Positions 3,137-37,118 of a stretch of 64,000 nucleotides of DNA are shown one piece after another. The first letter of the stretch is position 1; every line of letters begins with the position of its first letter. The stretch spans positions 310,001 through 374,000 of the forward strand of contig NZ_FKIF01000010.1 in NCBI RefSeq assembly GCF_900078705.1. The letters run 5' to 3'. The translations under genes were made by a program, and so were the position numbers. The notes under the pieces are model-generated. The model made no database searches. It saw only the letters and a program-made list of their open reading frames with translations, and was not told the origin of the DNA. The DNA is from Bordetella ansorpii. GTDB lineage: Bacteria; Pseudomonadota; Gammaproteobacteria; Burkholderiales; Burkholderiaceae_B.

Positions 3137-4375
3137 TTAGCTGTGGTACGCGGACTCGCCGTGGCTGGTCACGTCCAGGCCTTCGCGTTCCTGGTCTTCC
3201 GGCACACGCAGGCCGCACAGCATGTCCGCGATCTTGTAGGCGATCCAGGCCACGATGCCCGACCAGATGATGGTCAGCAGCACGCCTTCGAGCTGCACCC
3301 AGACCTGGCCGGCGATGGCGCCGACGCTGTCCAGGCCCGGGCCGCCCAGGGCCTTGGCGTTGAACACGCCGGTCAGCAGGGCGCCGACGATGCCGCCCAC
3401 GCCGTGCACGCCGAACACGTCCAGCGCGTCATCGGCACGCAGCATGCGCTTCAGGCCGTTGACACCCCACACGCAGATCACGCCCGCCACCACGCCGATC
3501 ACCAGCGCGCCCACCGGGCCCACCAGGCCGGCGGCCGGGGTGATGCCGACCAGGCCGGCGATCGCGCCGGAAGCGGCGCCCAGCATCGAGGGCTTGCCCT
3601 TCAGGCTCCACTCGGTCAGCGTCCAGGCCAGCACCGCGCCTGCCGTGGCGACCATCGTGTTGAAGAAGGCCAGCGTGGCGCCTTCGTTGGCGGCCAGCGA
3701 CGAACCGGCGTTGAAACCGAACCAGCCCACCCACAGCAGCATGGCGCCGATGTAGGTCATGGGCAGGTTGTGCGGCTGCATCGCTTCACGGCCGTAGCCG
3801 ACGCGCTTGCCGATCACGTAGGCGCCCACCAGGCCGGCCACGCCGGCGTTGATGTGCACCACGGTGCCGCCGGCGAAGTCCAGCGCGCCCTTGGCGTTCA
3901 TCAGGCCGGGCGCGGTTTCCGAGACGAACCACACCATGTGGGCGATGGGAACGTAGGCGAACGTGAACCAGATCGCCGTGAAGACCAGCACGGCGGAGAA
4001 GCGGACGCGCTCGGCGAAGCTGCCCACGATCAGCGCGCAGGTGATGCCGGCGAACGTGGCCTGGAACGACGCGAATAGGATCTCGGTCAGCGAGGCCGAC
4101 ATGGCGTACGAACCATCCGCCGGCGTGAACATGCCGGAGAAGAACACCCGCGAGAAGCCGCCGAAGAAGGCGTTGCCTTCGGTGAAGGCCAGCGAGTAGC
4201 CGTAGATGAACCACAGCACGACGCCCAGGGCGAACGTGCACAGCACCTGCATCAGCACCGACAGCACGTTCTTGCTGCGCACCAGGCCGCCGTAGAACAG
4301 TGCCAGGCCGGGGACCGCCATCATCAACACCAGCAGTGTCGAGACGAGCAACCAGGAGATATCCGCTTTATCCAT
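3137..4375 (-). CDS. amtB: Ammonium transporter AmtB
   Basis: 412 residues with eleven predicted membrane helices, forming the trimeric ammonia/ammonium channel of the inner membrane. The two pore histidines are present: His174 in GGTVVHINAG and His324 in FGVHGVGG. The C-terminal tail ends DVTSHGESAYHS, the cytoplasmic segment that binds GlnK. It lies immediately downstream of the PII gene (36 bp) in the standard glnK-amtB order, so PII blocks the channel when nitrogen is plentiful. It has no separate promoter that I can see and is expected to share the sigma-54 promoter upstream of glnK. Confidence 0.97.
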   Translation of the reverse strand: MDKADISWLLVSTLLVLMMAVPGLALFYGGLVRSKNVLSVLMQVLCTFALGVVLWFIYGYSLAFTEGNAFFGGFSRVFFSGMFTPADGSYAMSASLTEILFASFQATFAGITCALIVGSFAERVRFSAVLVFTAIWFTFAYVPIAHMVWFVSETAPGLMNAKGALDFAGGTVVHINAGVAGLVGAYVIGKRVGYGREAMQPHNLPMTYIGAMLLWVGWFGFNAGSSLAANEGATLAFFNTMVATAGAVLAWTLTEWSLKGKPSMLGAASGAIAGLVGITPAAGLVGPVGALVIGVVAGVICVWGVNGLKRMLRADDALDVFGVHGVGGIVGALLTGVFNAKALGGPGLDSVGAIAGQVWVQLEGVLLTIIWSGIVAWIAYKIADMLCGLRVPEDQEREGLDVTSHGESAYHS

Positions 4376-31712: not shown

Positions 31713-31812
31713 CAGCCCGGCACGCAAATGCTGACGGAAAGCTGATCGTGCTTTTCGTCAGAGGGCTTCCGGCCTGCCTTCCAGGCTGCTGTGCAAGCCC
31801 TACAGCGGTTGC

Positions 31813-31890
31813 TGAAGCGGCGCGCGATATTTGCGGTACGCGGCGTGAGATAAATGGCCCTGATTTGGGTTTCATTAGAAGAAACGAAAT
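31813..31890. repeat. Phage right terminus with transposase-binding sites
   Basis: TGAAGCGGCGCGCGAT begins the phage. Its first 11 bases, and 14 of the first 15, equal the Mu right end as I recall it. GAGATAAATG at 31847 resembles a second Mu block (ACGATAAATG). GTTTCATTAGAAGAAACGAA (31869-31888) fits the MuA site consensus GTTTCAYTNNAARYRCGAAA with one inserted base. The host base before the end is C31812; the 5-bp target copy would be GTTGC if duplication is as in Mu. Confidence 0.75.
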
Positions 31891-31917
31891 TACAAAACGA
31901 TAAACCTGCGGCTTTTT

Positions 31918-32940
31918 ATGAGCCGCTGGATACATCGCCCGCAAACCCTTACCCCGACCCTCTCCGACGCCCTCGAGCGCTACCAGGCTGAGATATCTCC
32001 TAGAAAAAAAGGCGCAGCCACAGACGCGTCGATTGCGAAACGCTGGCTGGCCACACGGCTGGCCACCCGCCGCCTCAGCTCCATCACGGACACAGAGATC
32101 AGCAGCATCGCTGCCGAGTGGCTCCAGACCCTGGCGCCTGCGACGGTGGTTCGTCGCCTGGCACTGCTCTCCCATCTCTATACGGTGGCCAGGAAGACCT
32201 GGAAACACCGTCAACTCGCCAACCCGGTCCAGTTCGTCGACCGTCCTGCGGTCAACAATGCCCGCGAGCGCCGGCTCTACGACAACATCAGGCTGCGCGG
32301 CGTCCCGGCTGCGGAATGCCCCCGCAGCGAGATCGAGTGGCTGATCCGGGCGACTAGGTCGGCCGAGTTACCCACCATCATGGTGCTGGCCGCAGAGTCC
32401 GGCATGCGACGCTCGGAGCTGGTGGTCGCAGCGCGGCGGGAGCGGATCGACCTGACCCATGGCGTCGTGCACCTGGATGACACCAAGAACGGGGAGCGGC
32501 GCGCCGTTCCGTTAACTCCCTGGGCGCTGGCCTGGCTCAAGCTGTACTTAGTGGGCAAGCCGTCCAGGGGGCGCATCTTCTCGATTTCCCCCTCGGCTGC
32601 CACCCGCGCCTTCGCCCGCGCACGTGATCGAGCCAGGCGCCAGTATGAAGCTCTATGCAGGCGCTATGGCCGCGCGCCGCGACCGGAGTACTTCGTCGAC
32701 CTCCGGCTGCATGATCTGCGACACGAAGCCACGACCAGGCTGGCCGAGGTCTACGACATGCACAAGCTCGCCAAAGTGACGGGGCACAGGGACACGCGCA
32801 TGCTGCTGCGCTACTACCATCCCTCTGGCCGAGACCTGGCCAGAGAGCTGGCGCGCAGCGACCTCGGCCGCCGGCAGCGCGCCCAGTTGTCGGCCGGCAT
32901 CACACCAGCCCTGCTGGCTCAGCGTGCACATTCCAGCTGA
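31918..32940 (+). CDS. Rci-like tyrosine recombinase (tail-fibre shufflon)
   Basis: 340 residues. The catalytic set of tyrosine recombinases is complete: Arg164 (SGMRRSE), Lys190 (DDTKNGERR), His265-x-x-Arg268 (LHDLRHE), His290 (TGHRD) and Tyr299 (LLRYYHP). Blocks LALLSHLYTVARKTW, IDLTHGVVHLDDTKNGE and LHDLRHEATTRLAE closely parallel what I remember of the R64 shufflon recombinase Rci. Transposition is supplied by a DDE transposase, so an integrase is not needed. It sits at the phage right end, the place of gin in Mu, and its last 41 bp overlap the convergent dam gene. It starts 105 bp inside the phage end. Inferred role: inversion at the 12-bp cores at 34442-35731. Confidence 0.85.
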   Translation: MSRWIHRPQTLTPTLSDALERYQAEISPRKKGAATDASIAKRWLATRLATRRLSSITDTEISSIAAEWLQTLAPATVVRRLALLSHLYTVARKTWKHRQLANPVQFVDRPAVNNARERRLYDNIRLRGVPAAECPRSEIEWLIRATRSAELPTIMVLAAESGMRRSELVVAARRERIDLTHGVVHLDDTKNGERRAVPLTPWALAWLKLYLVGKPSRGRIFSISPSAATRAFARARDRARRQYEALCRRYGRAPRPEYFVDLRLHDLRHEATTRLAEVYDMHKLAKVTGHRDTRMLLRYYHPSGRDLARELARSDLGRRQRAQLSAGITPALLAQRAHSS

Positions 32941-33691
32941 AGATCACCAGCTCGCGGCGCGGTGCACCGGCGCCCGCGCCCACGGTGTAGACGATGTCGG
33001 TCGACTCGATTGGGTAGGCGCTGAACAGCTTTCGAATGGCCGGATGATCATTGAGGGTGACGATGGCTTTCCCCTTCAGCTGGCCCAGCACGGCCGCGAG
33101 CAGCTCGTATTGATCCCAGCCGAACTGGACTCCATACCCCTCGGTCTCCCAATACGGCGGGTCCATGAAAAAGAACGTATGCACCCGGTCATAGCGCCGG
33201 ATGCACTCGTTCCACGGCAAGTTTTCTATATAGGCGCTGGCCAGCCTGAGATGGGCGGCCGACAGGTTCTCCTCGATGCGCAGGAGATTCAACCCAGGTG
33301 GTGCGGTGGTGGCCGTGCCATAGGTCTGCCCGTCAACGCGGCCTCCGAACGCACTGTGCTGCAGGTAAAAGAACCGGGCGGCGCGCTGGATGTCCGTCAG
33401 CGTCTGAGACGGCGTCTCCTTGAGCCACTCGAACACCTGACGGCTCGACAACGCCCATTTGAACTGCCGGACGAATTCCTCCAAGTGACACTTGACCACC
33501 CGGTAGAGATTCACCAGTTCGCCGTTGACATCATTCAGCACCTCGGCATCGGCCGGCACCGGCCGCAGAAAGAACATCGCGGCGCCGCCGGCAAACGGCT
33601 CGACGTAGCACTGGTGAGGGGGGAAGTACGGGAGAAGCCGGTCGGCCAGGCGGCGCTTGCCGCCGAGCCAGGGGATGATTGGTGATGCCAT
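32900..33691 (-). CDS. dam: D12-class DNA adenine methyltransferase
   Basis: 263 residues. The N-terminal PWLGGKRRL (7-15) and AdoMet motif EPFAGGAAMFF (31-41) with the catalytic motif DPPY (177-180) define the Dam/MboIA (alpha) class, normally GATC-specific. Mu-like phages often carry a DNA modification gene at this end (mom in Mu), which protects entering DNA from restriction. The ATG at 33691 begins the conserved region; upstream codons of the longer open frame are spurious. Its 3' end overlaps the recombinase gene by 41 bp on the opposite strand. Confidence 0.9.
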   Translation of the reverse strand: MASPIIPWLGGKRRLADRLLPYFPPHQCYVEPFAGGAAMFFLRPVPADAEVLNDVNGELVNLYRVVKCHLEEFVRQFKWALSSRQVFEWLKETPSQTLTDIQRAARFFYLQHSAFGGRVDGQTYGTATTAPPGLNLLRIEENLSAAHLRLASAYIENLPWNECIRRYDRVHTFFFMDPPYWETEGYGVQFGWDQYELLAAVLGQLKGKAIVTLNDHPAIRKLFSAYPIESTDIVYTVGAGAGAPRRELVIFSWNVHAEPAGLV

Positions 33692-33825: not shown

Positions 33826-34416
33826 TTATTCGACCGCTGCAGGTTTTTCGGGCCACGTCACGCTGGTGGGGAAGCCAACCTGCTCCGGGACGTCGCGCAG
33901 TGCCTGCAGGTAGTCCAGCACCGTCTGAGGCAACGGAACGGCCGTTGTGACAGAGCGCAGCACCAGGCCGTTGGTAGCGTTCAGCAGTTCGTCGCGCCTC
34001 GCACGGACGGCCCTTGCCTGTGCCGCCAGCTCCGCTGCCTGATCGAGCACCCAGGCCATCGTGCTGGCGTCCCAGCGGTGATTCTCCGTCGGCCGCGGTT
34101 GTGCCGTCAGCCACTCGGGCAACGGGCCGGTGCCAGGGTACATCTGCCCGTCGACTTCTTCGGCGAGGTCGTAGGGCCGACCGTCCGAGGTCACGAACAG
34201 CGGGACAGTACGATAGTCGGCCTCGACCAGCCACTGCCCGGTTCCAGCATTACCGAACGTCGGTTCGTAATCCGGGATGGACGTGTCCCAACGAGCAATC
34301 TGCCCCTCCGGCAGGTTGGGCGGCTCGTCCTGCACGCACATGCCCGGCCGCGGACCTTCGCAGGGCCATGCATGCAAGAGCAACCCGCGCGCGTCGACTT
34401 GATACACCATTTCCAT
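33826..34416 (-). CDS. tfa: Tail fibre assembly protein (Tfa/U-like)
   Basis: 196 residues. The C-terminal half RPTENHRWDASTMAWVLD, then AELAAQARAVRARRDELLNAT and LPQTVLDYLQALRDVPEQ is the Caudo_TAP pattern of fibre assembly chaperones. Start MEMVYQ has AGGAGA seven bases upstream. It sits just beyond the cassette array and 25 bp from core A. One tfa therefore serves all fibre variants, whereas Mu has paired U and U'. Expressed on the late strand together with the fibre. Confidence 0.87.
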   Translation of the reverse strand: MEMVYQVDARGLLLHAWPCEGPRPGMCVQDEPPNLPEGQIARWDTSIPDYEPTFGNAGTGQWLVEADYRTVPLFVTSDGRPYDLAEEVDGQMYPGTGPLPEWLTAQPRPTENHRWDASTMAWVLDQAAELAAQARAVRARRDELLNATNGLVLRSVTTAVPLPQTVLDYLQALRDVPEQVGFPTSVTWPEKPAAVE

Positions 34417-34441
34417 ACACACTCTCCTGTTGTGGGATTGA

Positions 34442-34453
34442 CACTGCAAATGC
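34442..34453 (+). repeat. Recombination core A (CACTGCAAATGC)
   Basis: 12-bp core with left flank GATTGA and right flank GAGATCGCTGG. In the expressed site E the left flank ends TGA as well (TGACACTGCAAATGC in both). It bounds the array on the tfa side. Confidence 0.8.
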
Positions 34454-34661
34454 GAGATCGCTGGGGTCGCGCCAGGCAGATCAGTTCCGCGAGCATCGCC
34501 ACTCGCTGAACGTATCCGGCCAGGTAGCCATAACAGCCCAGGCCGGCTCGGGCTTCTCGGCGCTGGGGCTGCAGTTCCAGGACGCGGGGTTCGTCGTGCC
34601 GAACGGCGGCTCGGAGACTCGCTCGGTTAACACGGCGTACTGCCCGCGGATCCATGTCTGA
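34443..34661 (+). pseudogene. Silent tail-fibre C-terminal cassette A
   Basis: 73 codons beginning TANARSLGSRQADQF and ending NTAYCPRIHV stop, in frame with core A exactly as in the expressed fibre. It has no start or promoter of its own and is opposite in strand to the fibre gene. It is the shortest cassette; the middle part (SGQVAITAQAGSGFSALGL) is unrelated to the other tips while the two ends are conserved. Inversion at A and E would fuse it to the fibre. Confidence 0.8.
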
Positions 34662-34667
34662 CCTCGC

Positions 34668-34679
34668 CACTGCAAATGC
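34668..34679 (+). repeat. Recombination core B (CACTGCAAATGC)
   Basis: Core with flanks ACCTCGC and GCGCGTCCTGGGCAGC. Both flanks are shared with cores C and D, so the repeated unit in B-D is about 35 bp. The preceding cassette's TGA stop is directly adjacent. Confidence 0.85.
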
Positions 34680-34926
34680 GCGCGTCCTGGGCAGCCGGCA
34701 GGCTGAGGCTACTGGCCCGCTAGCGCTGAGAACATATGCGGCCGCTGAAACCGGGTCCAATCTGTCGGTGCTGCGCACCTCCGCGCTGGGGTCGGCCAGC
34801 CTCACCACCAACACCGGCACTGCCGTGAGCAACGGCAGCAACCTGTATCTCGGATTGGCCACCGGCGGTAGCGGTGCTGAGCTGCGGCCGGTAAATACTG
34901 CCTACTACCCGAGAATCCATGCCTGA
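34669..34926 (+). pseudogene. Silent tail-fibre C-terminal cassette B
   Basis: 86 codons: TANARVLGSRQAEATGPLAL, a variable serine/threonine-rich middle, then ELRPVNTAYYPRIHA stop. It continues the fibre frame across core B. An apparent ATG at 34654 comes from the end of cassette A and is not a real start. The tip resembles cassette C most (TGP, NALSYG/TAVSNG, GGAGAELRP). Confidence 0.82.
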
Positions 34927-34935
34927 TGACCTCGC

Positions 34936-34947
34936 CACTGCAAATGC
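34936..34947 (+). repeat. Recombination core C (CACTGCAAATGC)
   Basis: Core with flanks ACCTCGC and GCGCACCCTGGGCAGC, two bases different from B on the right side. It follows the TGATGA stop of cassette B. Confidence 0.85.
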
Positions 34948-35194
34948 GCGCACCCTGGGCAGCCGGCAATCGGCCGCCACAGGCCCCGTCGACGTCACGG
35001 TCTGGACGGCCAACCGTTTCGGCGGGACGCTGAGCGTGCTGTCGCCTCCGCGCCTGGGCGCGGCCGGCCTCATCGAATCCACCGGCAACGCCCTCAGCTA
35101 CGGGACCGACCTGTACGTCGGGCGTGGTGTCGGAGGGGCGGGTGCCGAACTCCGTCCAAACAACGTTGCCTACCATCCGCGCCTCCATGTGTGA
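34937..35194 (+). pseudogene. Silent tail-fibre C-terminal cassette C
   Basis: 86 codons: TANARTLGSRQSAATGPVDV through GGAGAELRPNNVAYHPRLHV stop. Same length as B with conserved ends and a divergent middle (TANRFGGTLSVLSPPRLG). No promoter or ribosome site precedes it. Would be expressed after inversion between C and E, which also turns cassette D to the minus strand behind it. Confidence 0.82.
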
Positions 35195-35200
35195 CCTCGC

Positions 35201-35212
35201 CACTGCAAATGC
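35201..35212 (+). repeat. Recombination core D (CACTGCAAATGC)
   Basis: Core with flanks ACCTCGC and GCGCGTCCTGGGCAGC, identical to B over 35 bp. Inverted relative to site E, 531 bp from outer edge to outer edge. Confidence 0.85.
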
Positions 35213-35462
35213 GCGCGTCCTGGGCAGCTACCAGCCCGACGCCCAGCAACGCATCACGGGCGGTCCCGGCACCATGCCGTATGCAGGCGCTCAAACCGGC
35301 CCGTTCGTGGTGAGCGCCCGATATGGCTCTGGCATCTCGTTCGCGGGCAGCACCGTGGACACCAACTACGGCGCTATGGCGTTCGACAATGCCCGGACCG
35401 CCCGCACCTCGTCCGAAAACCGATCTACCAACGTTGCGTTCGCGCCAAGGATCCATGTGTGA
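35202..35462 (+). pseudogene. Silent tail-fibre C-terminal cassette D
   Basis: 87 codons: TANARVLGSYQPDAQQRITG, variable middle with VVSARYGSGISFAGST, then SSENRSTNVAFAPRIHV stop. The last block matches the expressed tip (SSETRSLNAAYAPRIHV) closely. Its stop lies only 4 bp from the stop of the expressed cassette on the other strand, so D and E are tail-to-tail. Confidence 0.83.
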
Positions 35463-35466
35463 ATGC

Positions 35467-36270
35467 CTATACATGGATTCGGGGCGCATATGCAGCGTTC
35501 AAGCTACGGGTCTCCGAAGACGACCTGGCCGTGAACGCGCTGTCGAAGGTGATCGACGACGAACCGCCAACGGTTCCGCTGTTCCCGACCGGTACTGTGT
35601 TGAACGGACTGTCGGAAAAAACGCCGCTGGCGCTCTGCGACGTGGCTGTCCGGCCGACCCAGCCCAGGCCACCATTGAGCCGCTGCATGGCATCCGACTG
35701 CCGGGACCCGAGGGTCCTGGCATTTGCAGTGTCAGCGTCAGTACCGTATGCGCGGTCGAACATATTGCGCATGTCCGGCACGCGGATCTGGCCACCCGAC
35801 CTGGCGAAGTTGTAGGCTCCGACGACATAACTGGCGGCTGCGACCAGGAGGCCGTTCTCCTGCGCCCAGGCCAGCAAGTGCTTTCCGGGATAGGTGGTTT
35901 CGTTGAGCCAGGCACCTTCGGCGGCGATCTGCCACGGGCGCGCGGTGCGCGACCATCCGTGTTCGTACTCGCCCAACTTGGCCGATCGGTAGCCGCCCGT
36001 CCAGTACGTACCCAGCGGCACCCACACCCAGACGTCCTGGGCTTCGATGACCCACACGGGGCCGACATCAGCCGTCAGCGCCGTCACCGTCGCCATGCTC
36101 ATCACCGGCATGGTGCGATCCACGCGAGCCAGCTCGAAGCCCCTCGGCGTCTGGCCGTCGTGAACGTGAAGGGTCCCGCGGGTCGTGTTGACCGTCACCT
36201 CGCGGACCTTGCCGGTAAACGTTTCATGCTCGCCGGCCGTGCCGCCGCGCAGTTGCAGAGGGGTACTCAC
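35467..36270 (-). CDS. Tail fibre with exchangeable C-terminus
   Basis: 267 residues. Residues 1-180 are constant: a short adaptor (LQLRGGTAGEHETFTGKVREV), a beta region with WVWVPLGTYWTGGYRS, and the tail-collar segment GGQIRVPDMRNMFDRAYG at ~161-178. Codon 181 lies in core E, and residues 181-267 are the currently expressed tip, ending AAYAPRIHV. The GTG start overlaps the stop of the preceding fibre-related gene. The tip is expected to contact the host receptor. Three of the four silent tips match it in length and all match it in end sequences, so replacement by inversion keeps the frame. Confidence 0.85.
   Translation of the reverse strand: MSTPLQLRGGTAGEHETFTGKVREVTVNTTRGTLHVHDGQTPRGFELARVDRTMPVMSMATVTALTADVGPVWVIEAQDVWVWVPLGTYWTGGYRSAKLGEYEHGWSRTARPWQIAAEGAWLNETTYPGKHLLAWAQENGLLVAAASYVVGAYNFARSGGQIRVPDMRNMFDRAYGTDADTANARTLGSRQSDAMQRLNGGLGWVGRTATSQSASGVFSDSPFNTVPVGNSGTVGGSSSITFDSAFTARSSSETRSLNAAYAPRIHV
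35720..35731 (-). repeat. Recombination core E inside the fibre gene
   Basis: The same 12-bp core in the opposite orientation to A-D, encoding (D)TANAR at codons 180-185 of the fibre. Left flank GCTGA, right flank CAGGACCCTCGGG. The codon phase is identical to that of all four silent copies. Confidence 0.85.
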
Positions 36271-37118
36271 GTCAGGTCTCCCAAATCCAGGTTGCCCAGG
36301 TCGTCAATGGTGACCGAGCTCTTCGTTGCCAGCGAACCCAATCCGAGCGCGGTGCGAGCGCCTGCCGCGGTGGTGCTACCGGTGCCGCCACTTGAGATCG
36401 GAAGCGCGCCCGTGACGCCGAACGTAATGTTCGCCGTACCATCGAATGACGTGGCGGCCGTTGAGGCCAGGTTGACCTGGAATGATCGAGGCGTGGTCAA
36501 CTTCACGGCGGCGAGCGCGTTCCCGCCGGAGTCGAAACGGGCCACCAGCCACTTCAGCGCGTTCCGGGTAACCTGCAGCAGACTGGCCACGGAAGTGGAC
36601 GTTCCTGCCGCAGGCAGAGTACTCGCCGCCGCAGCGTCGGCCAGGGTGTAGTTCGCAGCGGCCAAGCCGGCGGCGGCGATACGCGCGTCCACCCGTGCAT
36701 TCGTGTAGTACAGGTTGGCCGCACCCTCGACAACGTCGTCCGTCGTCCCAGGCGAGGCGACCAGCTCCACATAGGTGGAGCCCGACCAGCGGTACTGTCG
36801 ACTGGTGTCCAGCGCCACAAATATCTTGCCCGTCTCGCCAGGTGTGGGAAATCCTGCCCTGTTCGCGTACTCGAGCACGTCGTCGACGTATGACGGCAGG
36901 TTGGCCGCCGGTACCTTTTGATCCGCGCCCAGAGGGGCAACGCCACCGGCAACGCCGACCTGGCTGAACCCGACCATCGGCAGGCCGCCCGGCGTGACGC
37001 CGTCGTGGACGACGACGACCTTCTTAGTGATGTCCACCGTGAGTTCGCGCTGCGCCCCTACAAAGGTGGCGTGTTGAGCGGTCGTACCGCCCCGGAATTG
37101 AAGTGTTTTCCCGCTCAT
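36267..37118 (-). CDS. Tail-fibre-associated structural protein
   Basis: 283 residues. It begins with the same adaptor as the fibre (LQFRGGTTAQHATFVGAQRELTVD, compare the fibre start) and has the phage-tail block NLYYTNARVDARIA, followed by SFQVNLASTAATSFDGTANI and ISSGGTGSTTAAGARTALGLGS, a pattern common in tail-fibre shafts. It ends LGNLDLGDLT, the same tail as the preceding gene. Overlapping start and stop codons couple it to both neighbours. Probably a shaft or connector for the variable fibre. Confidence 0.75.
   Translation of the reverse strand: MSGKTLQFRGGTTAQHATFVGAQRELTVDITKKVVVVHDGVTPGGLPMVGFSQVGVAGGVAPLGADQKVPAANLPSYVDDVLEYANRAGFPTPGETGKIFVALDTSRQYRWSGSTYVELVASPGTTDDVVEGAANLYYTNARVDARIAAAGLAAANYTLADAAAASTLPAAGTSTSVASLLQVTRNALKWLVARFDSGGNALAAVKLTTPRSFQVNLASTAATSFDGTANITFGVTGALPISSGGTGSTTAAGARTALGLGSLATKSSVTIDDLGNLDLGDLT

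Follow-up and report, generated by a model that had tools for sequence, protein, structure and literature searches.

The DNA analyzed here is a window of 64,000 nucleotides from Bordetella ansorpii (positions 310001-374000 of contig 10, NZ_FKIF01000010.1) that holds one end of a transposable prophage, and our subject is a tail-fibre gene of that prophage, four silent gene ends (cassettes) stored beside it and a nearby tyrosine recombinase gene. Five copies of a short DNA core, one within the fibre gene and one at the head of each silent cassette, make the locus a candidate shufflon. Its main features are the following.

31918..32940, plus strand: tyrosine recombinase, the proposed shufflon invertase, 340 amino acids (PF00589, E 8.7e-18)
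34442..34661, plus strand: silent cassette A, core 34442-34453 and tip frame, 72 codons (PHROG tail fiber phrog_1858, E 1.6e-4)
34668..34926, plus strand: silent cassette B, core 34668-34679 and tip frame, 85 codons (without PHROG match up to E 0.1)
34936..35194, plus strand: silent cassette C, core 34936-34947 and tip frame, 85 codons (without PHROG match up to E 0.1)
35201..35462, plus strand: silent cassette D, core 35201-35212 and tip frame, 86 codons (PHROG tail fiber phrog_1858, E 5e-7)
35467..35731, minus strand: expressed cassette E, core 35720-35731 and tip, in frame with the constant fibre part
35732..36270, minus strand: constant part of the tail-fibre gene, 180 codons (Mtd_N PF18454, E 6.7e-13)

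Repeated cores and probable inversion between them

The core is a 12-mer, CACTGCAAATGC, with exact copies at 34442, 34668, 34936 and 35201 on the plus strand and at 35720-35731 on the minus strand. Its codon phase is identical in all five copies (GAC or GCC, then ACT GCA AAT GC), and the frames that run from cores A, B, C, D and E, of 72, 85, 85, 86 and 87 codons, start with TANAR and finish with PRI/PRL-H-V/A. Each of the four silent cores runs in the opposite orientation to the fibre-gene core, and the stop of cassette D (35462) faces that of cassette E (35467) with 4 bp between them. The tail-fibre gene (36270..35467, minus strand) has 267 codons, of which the last 87 run from the core onward, so that the constant part amounts to 180. 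An earlier note on this DNA had described these core positions, phases, frame starts and ends, the inverted orientation, the 4-bp gap and the 180-residue constant part, and all of them were found again in the window. In the 6.2-Mb genome the exact core occurs five times, always in the window, and the reversed pattern once. Allowing up to two mismatches gives an unremarkable 11 occurrences vs 6.24 expected; the telling features of the cores are exact repetition, codon phase and spacing.

The core is maintained at the DNA level, as the codon statistics of the TANAR motifs reveal. When TANAR was located by protein motif, 89 of 91 copies were spelled ACT GCA AAT GC, vs 0.15 expected from background codon use (5, 10 and 33% for ACT, GCA and AAT in seven window genes; the 91 copies are not independent), and the rare-codon spelling ACT GCA AAT is kept in silent cassettes too. 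Where fibre loci read SANAR or AANAR the DNA is still CTGCAAATGC, and where they read NANAR it is still TGCAAATGC. These statistics rule out protein-level conservation alone and, together with the genome-unique exact cores, rule out a chance origin of the repeats. Variant cores are themselves repeated within single loci, CACTGCTAATGC twice in L126, CAATGCAAATGC three times in L138 and CATTGCAAATGC three times in L134. Among sites that had been picked by the core, a G at position -8 is present at 36 of 37 expressed and 115 of 123 silent sites (L073 left out).

Core-to-core inversion is observed directly in related phages. Outside one inverted segment, the metagenome phages L043 and L044 are nearly the same, with a single mismatch in 2876 bp and another in 533 bp, and that segment is an exact core-to-core inversion (bases 3703-4176, 474 bp) that exchanges the expressed tip while the constant-side and silent-side flanks stay unmoved. 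The crossover is confined to 24 identical bases beginning at the first core base. In a second pair, L034 and L035, the constant part and upstream DNA are 94.1% identical over 6228 bp, and the expressed tip of each phage is stored silent in the other. The earlier note had proposed a shufflon and expected the cassettes of related phage genomes to stand in different orders, which is what both pairs display; such rearrangements in otherwise equal genomes were found in these relatives and not in the window prophage. More broadly, 212 cassette copies from 60 loci fall into 150 families, and 19 of the 33 multi-copy families have both expressed and silent members, "expressed" being judged by an upstream sequence motif.

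Draft assemblies break at the cores as well. A contig end lies within 120 bp of a core in 8 of 25 draft contigs (<3 Mb), vs 0.13-0.39 expected (L109, L111, L112, L113, L118, L121, L135 and L136, the core of L136 being a variant). Of seven genomes that were checked, four (G054, G057, G061 and G069) have a pair of contigs that both bear a core close to an end, the seven having been preselected for a contig ending at a core. Separately, one cassette stands twice in the array, expressed and silent, at L114 (7405, 8635) and L122 (7779, 8888), which may come from a duplication or from the effect of mixed arrangements on the assembly.

Within the prophage PF00589 matches the tyrosine recombinase alone, and 19 further matches lie elsewhere in the genome. 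The R, K, HxxR, H and Y positions that have catalytic roles in tyrosine recombinases are all present in it (alignment A1); the relative at L021 has N at the second His position. Identity to plasmid Rci is 32.8% over 338 amino acids, so the Rci-like enzyme named in the earlier note corresponds to the sole recombinase found in the prophage, a distant kin of Rci. A serine invertase was ruled out as the driver, since the serine recombinase domain (PF00239, Resolvase) had no match in the genome while scoring in 10 of 14 control genomes. In a midpoint-rooted tree of 34 rows, with many weak forks and two rows flagged for very long branches, the window enzyme groups with those of L034 and L026 (100/100), and Rci falls into a seven-row group with the PAJU2 integrase, L143, L139, L140 and L029, separate from the core-bearing recombinases (94/99; fork drawn open). 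Named phage records include 70 matches to the recombinase, all below 60% identity, the 20 matches listed lying at 36.6-37.1%, and 2323 plasmid records match, one of them in the 60-80% identity band. At E 1e-5 no PDB chain matched the profile built from the recombinases, and a search of PDB with the single sequence returned three Xer chains, weakly.

Together, these observations lead us to interpret the locus, with a probability of about 0.93, as a shufflon, a DNA-inversion switch with several cassettes, carried by a Mu-type transposable prophage, in which the recombinase encoded at 31918-32940 joins the fibre core with inverted silent cores. The enzyme would recombine the fibre-gene core with one inverted core heading a silent cassette, and the DNA between the two would flip, so that the 180-residue constant part would be joined in frame to a different tip of 72-87 residues and the former tip stored silent. 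Successive inversions would reshuffle the silent store; in a model that permits inverted cores only, 48 arrangements are reachable from the present one and all five tips can be expressed. This mechanism is very likely; the anatomy, the prophage ends, the DNA-level constraint on the core, its association with the recombinase and the inversion and tip swaps in relatives are observed, and we infer both the action of the window recombinase on these cores and the occurrence of inversion in the window prophage. A phage population would then carry several attachment specificities, and the shufflon probably lets such phages change which bacteria they attach to, a putative host-range function.

Prophage setting and occurrence in relatives

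The element is a Mu-type transposable prophage of about 39.6 kb with a 6-bp target duplication, GGTTGC flanking both the TG at 31813 and the CA at window coordinate 71428 (beyond the window, L006:15428). Homology of the window with L027 begins at 31810, and the same TGAAGCGGCGCGCGA end occurs in L027 and L034 next to differing flanking DNA; an additional CA-GGTTGC at 70435 lies inside the homology with relatives and was set aside as an end. The gene content includes Portal_Mu, Mu_F, Gp27, Baseplate_J, an rve-type transposase (25.3 bits, under the Pfam cut-off of 32.6) and an AAA (AAA_22) MuB-like gene. The element thus has what defines Mu-type transposable phages, namely a DDE transposase, a MuB-like ATPase, Mu head genes and TG..CA ends with a short duplication, and the ends and duplication bear out its assignment to the Mu family in the earlier note. 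The motifs GAGATAAAT / GGATTTATCTC recur at both prophage ends (window ~31850-31925; L006 15300-15430) and are probably transposase-binding sites. The recombinase gene begins 105 bp inside the right end and is followed in order by a Dam-like methylase, the tail-fibre chaperone, the cassettes and the constant fibre part; the remaining features of this region are listed here.

31813: prophage right end (TG..., GGTTGC directly before)
32900-33691, minus strand: D12-class adenine methylase, between recombinase and chaperone
33826..34416, minus strand: tail-fibre assembly chaperone, outside the cassettes (PF16778, E 2.3e-17, and PHROG tail fiber assembly; scanned as 33826-34449)

The ATG start of the chaperone was inferred from an upstream AGGAG. 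The D12-class methylase is 85-90% identical in L026, L027, L028 and L022, with no match in L021. Residues 1-58 of the fibre are similar to the base of BPP-1 Mtd (PDB 1yu0-1yu4, E 1.2e-11), and the whole protein matches PHROG tail fiber phrog_1858 over residues 108-266 (E 1.5e-14); the expressed tip is probably its receptor-binding end, and the tips would choose receptors. Two adjoining fibre genes (35467-36270 and 36267-37118, minus strand) both open with an Mtd_N domain, and one of them bears the shufflon tip.

Relatives were reached by several routes. Among IMG/VR contigs, the copy L025 has a fibre 100% identical to that of the window, and L026, L027 (=L035) and L028 (=L034) have recombinases 85-86% identical to the window's and 3, 6 and 9 cores, respectively (one core with one mismatch); L029 has a recombinase of 28% identity and no exact core. 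A fibre search in the genus matched 4 of 15 genomes and led to G006, with two core arrays (L021 and L022) beside recombinases 61-62% identical to the window's, while L023 and L024, also genus fibre relatives, had neither an exact core nor a recombinase match within the stretch fetched. With the fibre as query against genome contigs, no related locus was found. Searches for a two-core pattern returned 23 and 26 stretches of viral contigs and 11 stretches of genome contigs, of which 8 were real: Achromobacter ruhlandii (2), A. dolens (2), Herbaspirillum, Paraburkholderia saeva, Pandoraea captiosa and a Burkholderiaceae metagenome-assembled genome. The false positives were L053 among viral contigs and L066, L068 and L073 among genome contigs, where they were TANA repeats in long proteins or lacked a tip frame; all four were excluded from the cassette-family and shared-cassette counts. 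A tally of 154 sites at 38 loci, from which the duplicate loci L026, L027, L028 and L065 were removed, retains the four sites of L053, and the record of L053 is among the 35 array-bearing genomes or records. Of these 35, the A1 recombinase profile matched 28, one weakly (G028, L042, also at a contig end), and Portal_Mu was found in 5. Many of the records are fragments; even so, non-Mu phages probably carry the module too, which would then extend beyond Mu-like phages.

The association between recombinase and core also appears when the core is not used in the search. A recombinase-first search, in which up to 7 candidates per genome were scored, identified 39 places, spread over 32 of the 268 family genomes searched. 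At the 36 newly fetched places a core with at most one mismatch was present in 31, an exact core in 26 and at least two sites in 26; the other three places (the window, L021 and L022) have exact cores. Counted by genome, a core with no more than one mismatch lies near the recombinase in 30 of the 32. An order-wide sample contained the recombinase in 1 of 399 genomes, the window's own, and a phylum sample in 4 of 398 including that genome, adding three new loci (L148-L150).

Cassettes are shared between phages whose recombinases have diverged. Among 94 pairs of loci with a common cassette, 15 have recombinases less than 70% identical (43 pairs were not judgeable). In L034 and L036, DNA identity of 96% spans the common cassette together with its core and the core that follows, beginning exactly where the former core begins and stopping after the latter, and the recombinases are 57% identical; in two further pairs displayed, the similarity runs from the core to near the stop. 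The two prophages of G006 (L021 8654 and L022 6336) each have a shufflon, with one silent cassette in common (85% DNA identity). We tentatively propose that one site in the TANAR codons acts as a universal connector for tail-fibre tips across many phages of the family, Mu-like and probably others, and that tips could move between co-resident phages as core-bounded cassettes because the sites are identical, with the recombinase or core recombination as the agent. Such a shared tip pool, partly supported by the present data, may be likened to integrons sharing gene cassettes and, if true, would help explain fast host-range evolution.

Alternative explanations

Could the repeats be remnants of fibre 3' ends duplicated in tandem and kept alike through the TANAR protein motif, with no site-specific recombination? 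Conservation of ANAR and a nearby Q in 21 aligned expressed fibres and the likeness of the last codons of the cassettes fit such a history, but the rare codons in 89 of 91 motifs, silent cassettes included, the retention of most of the DNA core where the first residue is S, A or N, and the exact L043/L044 inversion make it barely credible. It is also quite unlikely that the tyrosine recombinase is a prophage integrase or cargo and that inversion is due to homologous recombination or another enzyme in trans. The nearest named phage relatives among the matches listed are annotated integrases (PAJU2, 37% identity), and the 19 other PF00589 matches in the genome are conceivable sources of a trans-acting enzyme. 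The prophage, however, should need no integrase given its transposase-like and MuB-like genes and 6-bp target duplication; among the 36 loci fetched independently, 31 have a recombinase relative beside cores; the sites of a locus have their core variant in common (L126, L138 and L134); and the identity at the inverted sites is just 24 bp, which is short for homologous recombination. That the shufflon was active in ancestors and has become fixed in the window prophage is unlikely: a single arrangement in the window and L025 is what decay would predict, yet the five cores are exact, the cassettes are all open and in phase, the recombinase is full-length and the prophage ends were found.

Several observations nevertheless count against the shufflon interpretation. 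The window prophage has been seen in a single arrangement, the same in L025 (which may be the same assembly), the L043/L044 inversion pair consists of metagenome contigs of another phage, and recombinase and cores are linked by association. Seven of the 35 genomes or records have no recombinase match; one is the false positive L053 and six are true arrays (L030/L052, L043, L046, L049, L055 and L063) situated no more than about 2.6 kb from the end of a contig. In all six that end is the one toward which the recombinase would lie, opposite the constant part, so that recombinase absence is not established. Conversely, five recombinase loci (L131, L137, L139, L140 and L141) have no core at up to one mismatch. 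The contig breaks at cores could instead be caused by a second prophage or by cassette duplication (L114, L122). With regard to receptor binding, the AlphaFold model of the fibre has a mean predicted local distance difference test score of 56.8 with the tip mostly below 50, too low for a usable tip structure; Foldseek with this model gave a best E of 1.5 and no usable match; and two of the four silent tips have no PHROG match, so that the receptor role rests on the family assignment of the other tips.

Comparison with known systems

Like shufflons of the R64 and Rin kind, the locus has several inverted site copies heading in-frame alternative C-termini and an adjacent tyrosine recombinase with its catalytic residues. 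The Rin shufflon of Bifidobacterium (PMC6109161) and Eggerthella lenta (PMC8778435) prophages likewise pairs a phage-borne tyrosine recombinase with silent C-terminal receptor-binding cassettes, a short crossover site within the gene and inversions between related prophages. Its constant N-terminus is 168 residues long (180 here) and its variable C-terminus 95-100 (72-87 here). The sites differ, TTCCCTAACCC (Bifidobacterium) or ttccgtat (Eggerthella) vs CACTGCAAATGC here, and the Rin hosts are actinobacterial phages with a separate tyrosine integrase, whereas here a transposable prophage carries an Rci-like recombinase and, unlike in Rin, one core is common to many phages. New with respect to Rin are thus the Rci-like enzyme, the wide occurrence and the single common site. 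The earlier note did not know a multi-cassette fibre shufflon with an Rci-like enzyme in a Mu-family phage as described; phage shufflons in which a tyrosine recombinase exchanges receptor-binding ends are in fact in print as Rin (PMC6109161, PMC8778435). Among the open-access papers listed in literature searches, in which the site sequence itself was not searched for, none was recognised as reporting a tyrosine-recombinase fibre shufflon of a Mu-like phage. Published work does note a Pseudomonas prophage with an Rci-like integrase gene (PMC2647930), and in four proteobacterial species prophages are reported to have inversions near their tail-fibre genes (PMC5903667).

The Rci/PilV shufflon of IncI plasmids (L142, L145; PMC5430464) also combines a tyrosine recombinase, inverted sites and alternative adhesin C-termini, although the target there is a pilus tip and here a phage tail fibre. 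The window core differs from the 19-bp Rci site repeats of L142 and L145, with partial resemblance: CTGCAAATGCG here, GTGCCAATCCGG and CTGTCAATCCGG on Rci plasmids and CTGCGAATCCG in L131. In L131 (7704-8195, 8642-8718) variant repeats CTGCGAATCCG/CTGCGAATGCG stand at 235-bp spacing and the contig end is a 77-bp inverted copy; these repeats may be intermediate between the phage core and the plasmid Rci sites. The likeness is suggestive only, and in the tree Rci sits, across a fork drawn open, among recombinases without the phage core. In IncI2 plasmids, heterogeneous shufflon structures disturb assembly (PMC5430464), to which we liken the contig ends at cores here.

Beyond the systems named in this section, nothing to our knowledge comes close to this locus. 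The occurrence of recombinase and core in relatives places the tyrosine-recombinase tail-fibre shufflon on a firm comparative footing, with a site short enough for instant recognition. The host range of such a phage would be unreadable from a single assembled genome, which shows only one of up to nine tips. Inversion swaps tail-fibre ends, as it would here, in Min of p15B, Gin of Mu, Cin of P1 and the FRphi gin shufflon, but these systems use serine recombinases, none of which matched in this genome. The chaperone gene of Mu lies inside the invertible segment, unlike the chaperone here, outside the cassettes. In FRphi, three tail-fibre isoforms were reported from reads, one of which alone infects its Enterobacter host (PMC13418256).

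Two reverse-transcriptase (RVT_1) matches occur in the genome, on contigs 2 and 6, with none on the prophage's contig, and a retroelement was ruled out as the diversifier. In BPP-1, the tip of Mtd is mutated by a diversity-generating retroelement, and the fibre base (residues 1-58) is alike; here the tip would be swapped by inversion. An Mtd-type fibre base diversified by a retroelement in BPP-1 and by inversion in the present prophage would offer a clean comparison of the two strategies.

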